A program made the translations under genes and the position numbers. The notes beneath the pieces were generated by a model, which did not search any database, was not told the DNA's origin, and saw only the letters and a program-made list of their open reading frames with translations. 64,000 nt of DNA from an uncultured Caldilineaceae bacterium. Its GTDB lineage: Bacteria > Chloroflexota > Anaerolineae > Caldilineales > Caldilineaceae. Where the stretch lies: NCBI GenBank assembly GCA_951812725.1, contig OX638330.1, forward strand, positions 372,001 through 436,000, in the 5' to 3' direction. Below, one piece after another: positions 24,254-29,480 of the stretch; within the stretch, counting starts at the first letter, position 1; every line of letters starts with the position of its first letter.

Positions 24254-25729
24254 TTGACCCTGACAGCAAGACTCGGCAGTAGCAGCAGACCAGTTAAGAT
24301 TGCAATCATCGGCGCAGGACCTTCCGGCTTCTACGCCGCCGGCGCCCTGTTGCGGCAAAAAGAGACCCACGTTTCGATCGATCTCTTCGACAGGCTGCCC
24401 ACACCTTACGGCCTGGTGCGCTACGGCGTGGCCCCCGATCACCAGAAGATCAAGTCTGTCACCCGCATCTATGAACGCACCATGAAAGACAGACGCGTTC
24501 GCTACTTCGGCAATGTCGATCTCGGCTCCGACATCACGCACGCCGAGCTGAAGTCGCACTATGATCAGATCATCTACGCGGTTGGAGCCCCGTCCGATAA
24601 AAAGCTCGGCATTCCCGGCGAAGACCTGCAGGGAAGCTTCTCCGCCACCGAGTTTGTGGCCTGGTACAACGGCCATCCCGACTTTCGCCACTTTCAGTTC
24701 GATCTGAGCGTCGAAAGTGTCGCCGTGATCGGTGTCGGCAATGTCGCGATGGATGTAACTCGCATCCTGGCCAAATCGGTCGCTGAATTGGAGACTACTG
24801 ACATCACCGACTACGCCCTGGAGGAGCTGCGGGAAAGCAATGTCAAACGCATTCACATCTTTGCCCGGCGAGGGCCGGTGCAGGCCAAATTCACCAATCC
24901 GGAGATTAAAGAGCTGGGTGAGCTGGAGATAGCCGACGTGATCGTCAACCCTGCCGACCTGGTTCTCGACGATGCCAGCCAGGCCGAGATGGAAGGGGAT
25001 CGCACAGCCCGGCGCAACATGGAAACGTTGCACGACCTGGCGGAACGCGGGGCCACAGGCAAACCGAAGCAGATCATCTTCCACTTCCTGCGCTCGCCAA
25101 CGGAGATTACCGGCTCTGGCGGCGCGGTCAGCGCAATGACGACCGAAAAGAACGCCTTGCATGCTACCGAAACGGGCTATGTATCCTGCCGCGGCATCGG
25201 CACTTACGCTGAGTATGACGTAGGGTTGGTCTTCCGCTCGATTGGCTACCGAGGAGTACCGATTCCAGGCGTTCCGTTTTTTGATCGTTGGGGTATCATA
25301 CCTAACGAAAAGGGACGGGTGACCGCCGAACATGGCGGCGCAGTCGTACCCGGCGAATACACCGTCGGTTGGGCCAAGCGCGGCCCTACCGGCGTAATCG
25401 GCACCAACAAGCCGGACGCCGGCGAAACCGTAAAATTGATGCTGGAGGATGTGAAAAACAGCGCCGTCGCGTCATCTCCTGACGGCTCTGCCGCAGCCAA
25501 TCATAGGGGCCTGCACACTGGCGGGGAACCACGCCCAGGTGACATCACTAACCTTTTGCAAAAAAGGGGCGTTGCCTTCGTTTCATTTGCCGACTGGCAG
25601 ATTCTGGAGCAGATCGAGAATGAACGGGGTGCGCTGCGGGGACAACCGCGGGCGAAAATCACCGACGTCGACGAGATGCTCCGCTTGATTCAGTCCGCCA
25701 AAAAAGAAGCCGCGGCACTGCCCTCATAG
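24254..25729 (+). CDS. Ferredoxin/adrenodoxin-type NADP(+) reductase (FprA family)
   Basis: 491 residues. It starts with TTG, the only suitable start before the FAD-binding motif, and has AAAGGA 8 bases upstream. The FAD Rossmann motif is 'AIIGAGPSGFYAAGALL' (GAGPSG at 20-25). 'LPTPYGLVRYGVAPDHQKIK' is diagnostic of adrenodoxin-reductase-like enzymes. The second dinucleotide (NADP) motif is 'AVIGVGNVAMDVTRIL'. The C-terminal 'GPTGVIGTNKPDAGETVKLM' binds flavin. It transfers electrons between NADPH and ferredoxin in the cytoplasm. No ferredoxin or P450 gene is adjacent. The reading frame is full length and intact. Confidence 0.95.
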   Translation: MTLTARLGSSSRPVKIAIIGAGPSGFYAAGALLRQKETHVSIDLFDRLPTPYGLVRYGVAPDHQKIKSVTRIYERTMKDRRVRYFGNVDLGSDITHAELKSHYDQIIYAVGAPSDKKLGIPGEDLQGSFSATEFVAWYNGHPDFRHFQFDLSVESVAVIGVGNVAMDVTRILAKSVAELETTDITDYALEELRESNVKRIHIFARRGPVQAKFTNPEIKELGELEIADVIVNPADLVLDDASQAEMEGDRTARRNMETLHDLAERGATGKPKQIIFHFLRSPTEITGSGGAVSAMTTEKNALHATETGYVSCRGIGTYAEYDVGLVFRSIGYRGVPIPGVPFFDRWGIIPNEKGRVTAEHGGAVVPGEYTVGWAKRGPTGVIGTNKPDAGETVKLMLEDVKNSAVASSPDGSAAANHRGLHTGGEPRPGDITNLLQKRGVAFVSFADWQILEQIENERGALRGQPRAKITDVDEMLRLIQSAKKEAAALPS

Positions 25730-25791: not shown

Positions 25792-27285
25792 TCAGCCGGT
25801 CTCTTCCCTGTCATCTTCAGCCCTCGGTTCGAGGAGCGCATCCATCTCCTGCGTCTCCTCTTCGCCTTCCCCATCTTCGGCCTGATTTCCCTCCGCCCGA
25901 TAGGTGGGAATCTCGTCGAGTTCTGCGTTGCCCGCATTCACCTCATCCACCGCGCTCCCCTCAACCTCCGTTTCAGCAAGCGCATGAGATTCATCAGGTC
26001 CCGACGTTTCATCAATCTCCCACGCATCTGATTCGGGCGTCAAACTAACCGGAACATGGGCAGGCAAGGAGGCCTTGATCTCTTCATCACTACCATCTCC
26101 CCAGTAGGAAGTGACCGAAGCCAGCACCGGCAGATCATCCAGACTGAGAATTGACTTCGTTCTCTTTAGCACTGCGATCCTCTCTTCCTCGGCAACCAAG
26201 CGCTCTCGGGGCTCAGGTTCCTGTATTTCGGGCGCCGCCAGGAGCGCTTCAGGCCCTTCTGGCAACTGATTCATCTTCTTGTAAAGCTGCGCCAGCGCCG
26301 GGCCGACCGCATCCAGGGGAAGGTGGCTTCGCACCGGCGTGTCTGATGTCTCCCACAACTCGGCCAGCGCCTCAAAATCCCACACTGCAGACAGTACACT
26401 CTCTGTGCGAGAATTCGACGCCTCTACCAAAATGCCGCTTGCGCGGGGGGTAAGCTCCTGTGGAGCCAGCACCGACGAGCGGCCCACAAACGGGTCTCGC
26501 TGTCGACGGCTGAACTCGTTATGGCCGACCAGAAAGCTGATAGCGGCGAACAGTTGGTTGTCCTGCATCCGCGCCAGCATCCCGGCCCGCAGCTTTTCGT
26601 ATAGGACCCGATCGGTAGCCGCGCCCTGGGCGACAAGAAGCTCCGCACCCTGGTATGCCAGCAGCCGCCCTACTTCCGGGTAGAGCAAGTCGCCGCCCAG
26701 CATCAGCCCGATCTGCCCGACCGGCGTCGGAATTACGTTCCACTCGTGGCCGCTCTGGGCCAGATCCTCGTCTTCAGGATGCAGCACCCGCTTGGCCTGG
26801 TAGCCCAGCCGCTCGCCGCCAGGCCCATAGACCACCGCCAAGTTGCGCAGCACCCCGTCCAGAGGGTCCGGCAGATAGGCGCTCGGCGCAACCAGGGTTA
26901 CATCAAATTCCCGCGCCAGCTCTCCAAAAACCCCGTCATAGGCATCCCACACCATCTCCGGCTGCGTCGTCAGCAGCGCGCCCGCCATCTGGCGAAAGTC
27001 GGAATTCAGCCACCCCGCAAGCGCGCCCGAAACGCCGCCGCTGACCTTTTGCCACAGGCCTGTCTGCCGCCGCCGCGCCAAATCTGCCCGCTTGAGCAGA
27101 TTCGCCTGAAAGCCGCCGAGAAGCGGCGGGATCACCATCACGCCGGCCAGTTCAGGGAATACCACCAGCCGCGCCCTCTTGTTCTCCGCAGCCCGCATGA
27201 ACCGGCGTAAATCGTCCCGGTACTCGTCCAGCGTCTGCGGCAGCCGCATCTTCTGCTGGATACAGGCGACAACGAGCGTTTTCAT
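25792..27285 (-). CDS. Nitrilase-superfamily protein lacking the catalytic cysteine
   Basis: 497 residues. The N-terminal 300 align with carbon-nitrogen hydrolases: 'MKTLVVACIQQ', the catalytic glutamate in 'LVVFPELAGV' (Glu45) and the lysine in 'GYQAKRVLHPE' (Lys165). The nucleophile motif, normally G-x-x-x-C-(Y/W)-D, reads 'IGLMLGGDLLYPE', with Gly197 in place of Cys, so amidase chemistry is not expected. Residues from about 340 form an acidic, low-complexity tail of more than 150 residues ending in many Glu/Asp. The ATG at 27285 is chosen because the domain begins there; no ribosome site is evident. It lies 54 bases after the Gfo/Idh gene, same strand. Possible roles are binding or scaffolding. 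Confidence 0.8.
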   Translation of the reverse strand: MKTLVVACIQQKMRLPQTLDEYRDDLRRFMRAAENKRARLVVFPELAGVMVIPPLLGGFQANLLKRADLARRRQTGLWQKVSGGVSGALAGWLNSDFRQMAGALLTTQPEMVWDAYDGVFGELAREFDVTLVAPSAYLPDPLDGVLRNLAVVYGPGGERLGYQAKRVLHPEDEDLAQSGHEWNVIPTPVGQIGLMLGGDLLYPEVGRLLAYQGAELLVAQGAATDRVLYEKLRAGMLARMQDNQLFAAISFLVGHNEFSRRQRDPFVGRSSVLAPQELTPRASGILVEASNSRTESVLSAVWDFEALAELWETSDTPVRSHLPLDAVGPALAQLYKKMNQLPEGPEALLAAPEIQEPEPRERLVAEEERIAVLKRTKSILSLDDLPVLASVTSYWGDGSDEEIKASLPAHVPVSLTPESDAWEIDETSGPDESHALAETEVEGSAVDEVNAGNAELDEIPTYRAEGNQAEDGEGEEETQEMDALLEPRAEDDREETG

Positions 27286-28466: not shown

Positions 28467-29480
28467 AGGGCCTTATGCTAGTTGGGAAAGGCCAATTGCT
28501 TGATTTGCAGATAGTCAGGTACGCCCAAGAGGCGGTTGATATAAATGCAGAGGGTATGTGCGGTCAATTTTGTGTATAAGCGTGCACAAAGGCCTCTGAG
28601 CGTGTGAGCGTGGTTGGTTTCAATCGAGAACTGTGCGTTGAGTTGACTGGTGACTGTTTCGATGATTTGGCGGACCGAGTCGTAGAGGCGAGAGAGGTGT
28701 GCCGGGATCTGTTTTTTCTGGTTTTTGCGCTTCTTGGTGAGAAGACGGATGCGATTGTATTGCCAGAGTTCCTCAGCTGCCGGTGCACTGACGTAGGCCT
28801 TGTCGCCGATGACGATGCGGTTGTCGTGTTCTGCAAGGAGTTCGCGACCGACAGCCAAGTCGCGTTCGTTAGCCGGAGCTAACTCGAAGTCGATAATAAG
28901 GCCACCCATCGTGATCAGCATATGCAGCTTGAAACCGAAGATCATCATCTTCTTGGAGGGAACGGGCCCATAATCGGCCCCCCAATCGGACCATTTGGCG
29001 CGCGCTTGTGGCGCCAGATGGAATTGAACCACAGGAATAGGCAGGCTATCGATTACACAATGCACGTCCCTGTAGAGTTCCGTCCTGGCCAACATCATGC
29101 GTCGCATTTCATTGATGACCCCCATCAAGTTACATCGCCGCCGATTGAAACGGCTCTGCTCCGGCAAAATCGGAAACTTATCCCGATGTGCCTGCATATG
29201 ATTGAGTAACTCTGTTTCCACATCCCATCCCACACATTCGCCGATGAGACAAATCGCGATCAATTCACTGTCGCTACACTCAGGCTCCGGCCCCGGTCGT
29301 CTCAGCTGTCCTTCCAGTTCCTTGTACATGTCGTCAACGAGCACATACACGCATAGACAGAAGTCGTCAAAGTGGGCTATCATTCGCTTGGTCCCCCTGG
29401 TGAGCTACCTTGGTTGGTCGAGACTTCCAAAGTTATCTCACCAGGGGACTTTTTTCAACCGCTAACTAGCATAAGGCCCT
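28467..29480. mobile_element. IS982-family insertion sequence (1,014 bp, intact)
   Basis: Ends are perfect 17-bp inverted repeats AGGGCCTTATGCTAGTT (28467-28483 and, inverted, 29464-29480). ATT flanks both sides (28464-28466 and 29481-29483), a short target duplication in line with the variable duplications of this family. A single intact transposase gene fills the element on the minus strand. The right end lies at the cupin stop codon. Confidence 0.9.
28478..29383 (-). CDS. IS982-family transposase
   Basis: 301 residues, the usual length. N-terminal 'FDDFCLCVYVLVDDMYKEL', then 'CSDSELIAICLIGECVGW' and 'FPILPEQSRFNRRRCNL' are characteristic of IS982 transposases. A DDE-type catalytic core follows: 'VIDSLPIPV' gives the first Asp, 'IVIGDKAYVS' the second, and 'SQLNAQFSIETNHAHTLRG' contains the Glu region. 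It is undamaged and ends within the left terminal repeat. The element appears recent because both termini are identical. Confidence 0.95.
   Translation of the reverse strand: MIAHFDDFCLCVYVLVDDMYKELEGQLRRPGPEPECSDSELIAICLIGECVGWDVETELLNHMQAHRDKFPILPEQSRFNRRRCNLMGVINEMRRMMLARTELYRDVHCVIDSLPIPVVQFHLAPQARAKWSDWGADYGPVPSKKMMIFGFKLHMLITMGGLIIDFELAPANERDLAVGRELLAEHDNRIVIGDKAYVSAPAAEELWQYNRIRLLTKKRKNQKKQIPAHLSRLYDSVRQIIETVTSQLNAQFSIETNHAHTLRGLCARLYTKLTAHTLCIYINRLLGVPDYLQIKQLAFPN

Follow-up and report, generated by a model that had tools for sequence, protein, structure and literature searches.

The window examined here, a stretch of 64,000 nt in the single-contig, 5.95-Mb genome of a member of the Caldilineaceae (Chloroflexota), carries on its reverse strand a gene for a nitrilase homologue (positions 25792..27285; 497 codons plus a stop codon, ATG start) in which glycine stands where the catalytic cysteine is expected, and the question it raises is whether the product is a decaying enzyme, an enzyme of another kind or a protein kept for a role other than hydrolysis. 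In a Pfam scan of the 497-aa protein the sole match was CN_hydrolase (E 2.3e-12, residues 6-276), while the NCBIfam matches were weak and far under cut-off, every one of them being to a nitrilase-superfamily model. An AlphaFold2 model based on 49 homologues gave a pLDDT of 89.7 and a pTM of 0.89 for residues 1-345, and comparison of this predicted core with nitrilase-superfamily structures returned Z-scores of 27.6-30.7, the best match being 6mg6 (Z 30.7, rmsd 2.6, 272 residues). That is, domain content and predicted fold both assign the protein to the nitrilase superfamily. The model also contains an insert of three helices (residues ~52-108; 26962..27132, reverse strand; pLDDT ~61-92, less confident at ~71-90) between the strand bearing the Glu residue and helix 109-127, and Cys-bearing relatives have inserts at the same place.

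Two of the three residues of the Glu-Lys-Cys (E-K-C) triad expected of an active enzyme are present in the window protein, and the third is not. As an earlier note on this DNA had stated, Glu45, the general base (codon 27151..27153, reverse strand), is kept within FPEL, and Lys165 (26791..26793, reverse strand) within YQAK, whereas the nucleophile position in LMLGGDLLYPE is Gly197. This residue, encoded by GGC at 26695..26697 (reverse strand), falls in the alignment column of the catalytic Cys, where the window protein reads IGLMLGGDLLYPE; the sequences VYICYD and LAICYD are found there in canonical enzymes encoded by this genome. The structure prediction that the note had proposed places Gly197 right after strand 190-196 and as the first residue of helix 197-201, which corresponds to the place of the nucleophile elbow. 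Among the 49 rows of a diverse homologue alignment, position 197 is Gly in 46 and Ser, Asp or Asn in one each, and never Cys; Glu is found at position 45 in 41 rows (changed in eight) and Lys at position 165 in 40 (changed in nine). The possibility that another Cys or a Ser has taken over at the site was rejected on the basis of this alignment and of the location of the protein's only Cys. Cys8 (27262..27264, reverse strand) lies in strand 1, away from the active site, and is not conserved, its column holding Cys in 34 of the 49 homologues and Ala, Val, Ser or Thr in the others.

Catalysis by the superfamily route, which proceeds via a Cys acyl-enzyme (PMC9913352), is very unlikely. The protein could in principle still be an enzyme using another nucleophile, e.g. 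activated water or Glu45, or catalysing another reaction, given that Glu45, Lys165, Asp199, Pro203-Glu204 and Arg207 are strongly conserved in the Caldilineaceae, where retention of Glu45 and Lys165 might reflect residual or altered chemistry. We regard this as highly improbable in view of the absence of Cys or Ser from the site, of the free variation at the neighbouring position 198 (Gly in the window protein; G, N, S, E and others in the alignment) and of the loss of Glu45 and Lys165 in relatives.

The gene was present in all 25 family genomes searched first (best E-values from ~1e-115 down to 0) and in 35 of 37 genomes in a wider sample. Checking of orthologues, as the earlier note had recommended, revealed Gly at the nucleophile position in all of the 37 distinct close orthologues, among which each of the four Gly codons occurs (GGC 29, GGG 4, GGA 3 and GGT 1), meaning that the codon has drifted without any change of the residue and that chance is excluded. 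Furthermore, Nei-Gojobori comparison with six orthologues (rough for pairs of high dS) gave dN/dS values of 0.03-0.09 for the core (residues 1-345) and 0.25-0.44 for the tail, indicating that the core is an actively maintained domain and that the tail changes quickly, though still under some constraint. A recent mutation, a decaying pseudogene or a sequencing error can be given practically no weight, since Gly recurs across dozens of different assemblies although its codon has changed synonymously, core dN/dS stays below 0.1 and the reading frames are intact; nothing was found in favour of such an explanation.

The family of long proteins to which the window protein belongs (hereafter the long family) extends, according to a class-wide profile search of 396 genomes, to many other families of Anaerolineae. 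There the Cys column holds Gly, or else Ser, Asp or Asn (L191, L193 and L201, respectively), but never Cys, and the Glu45/Lys165 pair is also replaced in some cases (A/A in L185, R/R in L187, Q/A in L188), a drift that would be expected once the chemistry was gone. When 400 genomes were sampled across the phylum only three passed 1e-50, all of them from the same class; the long family thus looks restricted to the Anaerolineae. Plasmid records yielded distant CN hydrolases only. Loss of the nucleophile is ancient and common to some twelve families of this class, if not more, and a recent single base change, such as that from TGC to GGC put forward in the earlier note, does not explain it. The note's other suggestion, a stable pseudoenzyme, fares better: the catalytic residue is lost across an orthologous family that is maintained by selection, none of the 49 homologues keeps Cys and no second Cys occupies the site, so that the status of conserved pseudoenzyme is well supported.

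What such a protein might do instead is suggested in part by its C-terminal extension. Residues 346-497 (25795..26250, reverse strand) form the acidic tail described in the earlier note, with 29% Asp+Glu and a net charge of -34 compared to -4 for residues 1-345, and are predicted to be disordered, with a pLDDT mostly below 50. Long acidic tails are found in most, though not all, long-family members across the class. Within the otherwise variable tail, most Caldilineaceae rows keep a first motif (LDDLPVLASVTSYW in the window protein, residues 382-395; 26101..26142, reverse strand) with the consensus LDxLPVLASVT..W. A second motif, ETQEMDAL (residues 477-484; 25834..25857, reverse strand; consensus ETxEMDAL), characterizes Caldilineaceae-type rows, ETxEMD being present in 34 of the 34 that reach the C-terminus. 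Back-translated DNA patterns of both motifs matched no place in the window genome other than this gene; one match to a tail-motif pattern in another genome (G026) lay outside any relevant ORF and seems fortuitous. Docking sites have this appearance, with short stretches conserved inside disordered acidic sequence, and we infer that the two motifs may act as such. Some long members from other families have basic-aromatic ends such as RKFRWPWQRR, KRWRFPWQN and RRRRFPWQK (C-termini of L180, L183 and L186; L196 and L197), which could possibly make contacts with a membrane or a partner.

One alternative combines tail and pocket in a ligand sensor, in which the pocket around Glu45 and Lys165 would bind a metabolite, either an amide or a carboxylate, and the signal would be relayed by the tail. 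Both residues are kept in the Caldilineaceae, and Cys-to-Ala amidases bind amides in crystals, to judge from the titles of structures 6ypa, 4izs and 5ny7. However, Ala, Arg, Gln or Gly replaces these two residues in several families of the same clade, which argues that the chemistry of the pocket is not needed for the role shared by the family, and we consider a sensor of this kind unlikely.

The closest relatives of the long family that keep the E-K-C triad are proteins of ~370 aa with the sequence PVCMDxTYxET. In many Anaerolineae their gene directly follows that of a ~300-aa inactive homologue, in which the Glu is replaced, the Lys is changed to Gln and the Cys is replaced mostly by Gly (tandem pairs L208 and L211-L231; e.g. 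L244:6639-8584 and L247:5931-7945). In five loci (L238, L244, L247, L248 and L249) the end of one frame and the start of the next share 4 bases, and in one genome (G496) the pair is fused as one ORF (L211/L246; L246:6412-8454), possibly through an assembly effect. Overlap and fusion together suggest that the tandem members are physical partners. In genome G520 (L227:1313-2447) the usually active member also lacks the Cys (LLGAD). Phylogenetic analysis separated the long family and the two kinds of tandem member, inactive and active, into three clades with bootstrap values of 100 each, the long family being a single clade at 100/100 and sharing a superclade with the tandem pairs at 99/95; that the inactive tandem member and the long family go back to one shared loss was neither demonstrated nor rejected (p-AU 0.45). 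Because the closest Cys-bearing relatives sit in inactive/active tandem pairs that overlap or are fused, the window gene is likely to descend from an inactive subunit that partnered an active one.

This arrangement raises the possibility that the window protein is itself a regulatory subunit, i.e. that it joins one of the cell's active nitrilases in mixed oligomers and turns that enzyme on or off. Such a role has a precedent in the prozyme that activates trypanosome AdoMetDC (PMC5201418), and the window genome does encode at least three canonical Cys nitrilases, although these are only distantly related to the window protein. In addition, no E-K-C partner of the tandem sister type was found in the Caldilineaceae, profile A3 at an E-value of 1e-25 retrieves no gene of the window genome but this one, and it stands alone at its locus, with no adjacent active nitrilase paralogue. 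A present-day regulatory subunit hence seems rather unlikely to us, even with the five overlapping loci and the fusion in its sister families.

The gene neighbourhood was of little help in this respect. The window gene is flanked by genes for a Gfo/Idh/MocA protein and a pyridine-nucleotide oxidoreductase; the latter (24254-25729, forward strand) is convergent with the pseudo-nitrilase gene and is the most widely kept neighbour (18 loci, three of them outside the genus). This convergent gene aside, gene order is conserved within the genus only, and loci of other genera have LexA/RecO, isopropylmalate-synthase-like, DNA pol III or transporter genes instead. A neighbourhood that is not kept beyond the genus names no pathway, and as a clue to function it was rejected. 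A DDE transposase gene (28478-29383, reverse strand; PF13612/PF01609) between a cupin gene and the Gfo/Idh/MocA gene has no counterpart at the matching place in related loci.

Taken together, we favour, with a probability of roughly 60%, a stable nitrilase-superfamily pseudoenzyme that works as a scaffold or adaptor and is possibly ligand-gated. The earlier note had already proposed a scaffold or sensor; conservation of the tail motifs and coupling of the inactive and active sister genes make this proposal more concrete. According to such a scheme, the core would form the usual nitrilase oligomer and its pocket could bind a ligand that it does not hydrolyse, while the disordered acidic tail would display ETxEMDAL and LDxLPVLASVT..W for docking of a partner protein. 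The tailed family probably arose from the inactive subunit of an inactive/active pair of the kind still carried by other Anaerolineae, or has an ancestor in common with that subunit.

Other nitrilases lacking the nucleophile were found in the phylum. A 270-aa Gly-type family (L056-L073, L122, L127 and L129), which keeps the Glu and mostly the Lys and reads GWD for CWD, is spread over the class and often adjoins lspA and an rluD-like gene, and it was not found in the window genome. A single clade of all Gly lineages was rejected in the case of this short family, which is clearly separate in the tree. Likely GNAT fusions from two Caldilineaceae, identified as GNAT by length and by the plasmid annotation of relatives rather than by a domain scan, have Gly or Ser in the nitrilase domain and have lost the Lys (L234 and L235), while L232 and L233, from outside the Caldilineaceae, keep both Lys and Cys; L123 is a Gly-type GNAT relative and L126 keeps the Cys. 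These comparisons indicate at least three losses of the nucleophile in Chloroflexota. A bolder version, which we offer tentatively and hold to be less probable than its opposite, is that Chloroflexota repeatedly turned nitrilases into non-enzymes in three to four lineages (long-tailed, tandem inactive, short and Caldilineaceae GNAT fusions), that the tandem pairs are obligate inactive/active heteromers and that the tailed family arose from them as a free-standing hub for signalling or assembly.

These observations have a practical side, as homology-based annotation will label long-family genes as hydrolases, and they warn against transferring amidase function by homology. Moreover, a class-wide, selected family that lacks the nucleophile, with tail motifs of its own and coupled pairs among its sisters, provides a natural system for the passage from an enzyme fold to a regulatory or scaffold protein.

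The nitrilase superfamily has been described as uniformly Glu-Lys-Cys (PMC9913352), and in partial coverage of the literature we found no paper describing nitrilase pseudoenzymes as such. With canonical members (PF00795; the Pyrococcus amidases 1j31/3ivz, N-carbamoylputrescine amidase and Nit2) the window protein shares the fold (Z ~30), the Glu and Lys positions and D-x-x-[YF]-P-E after the elbow, but it differs in lacking the nucleophile and in having the helical insert of ~55 residues and an acidic tail of ~150 residues with conserved motifs. The inactive tandem member belongs to the same superclade, has likewise replaced the Cys and carries REVQANQ..G, which matches RMQDNQ of the long family; unlike the window protein, it also lacks the Glu and the Lys, has no long tail and adjoins an E-K-C partner. 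The short Gly-type proteins share the change from Cys to Gly and the retained Glu and, mostly, Lys, but have neither insert nor tail. Functions that outlast catalysis are known for Nit1, whose C-to-A variant retains tumour-suppressor activity and whose binding to Fhit apparently requires its last 13 residues (PMC9913352), and Cys-less amidase mutants still bind ligand according to the titles of 6ypa and 4izs. The mycobacterial Lnt homologue BCG_2279c (PMC3850990) also has a CN_hydrolase domain in which the catalytic Cys is naturally replaced, and a contributive role has been proposed for it; it differs in that the replacement is Ser, that the protein is of the apolipoprotein N-acyltransferase type and that it is a single case. 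Finally, the trypanosome AdoMetDC prozyme is likewise a conserved dead paralogue of an enzyme, though its fold is unrelated and its partner is known.
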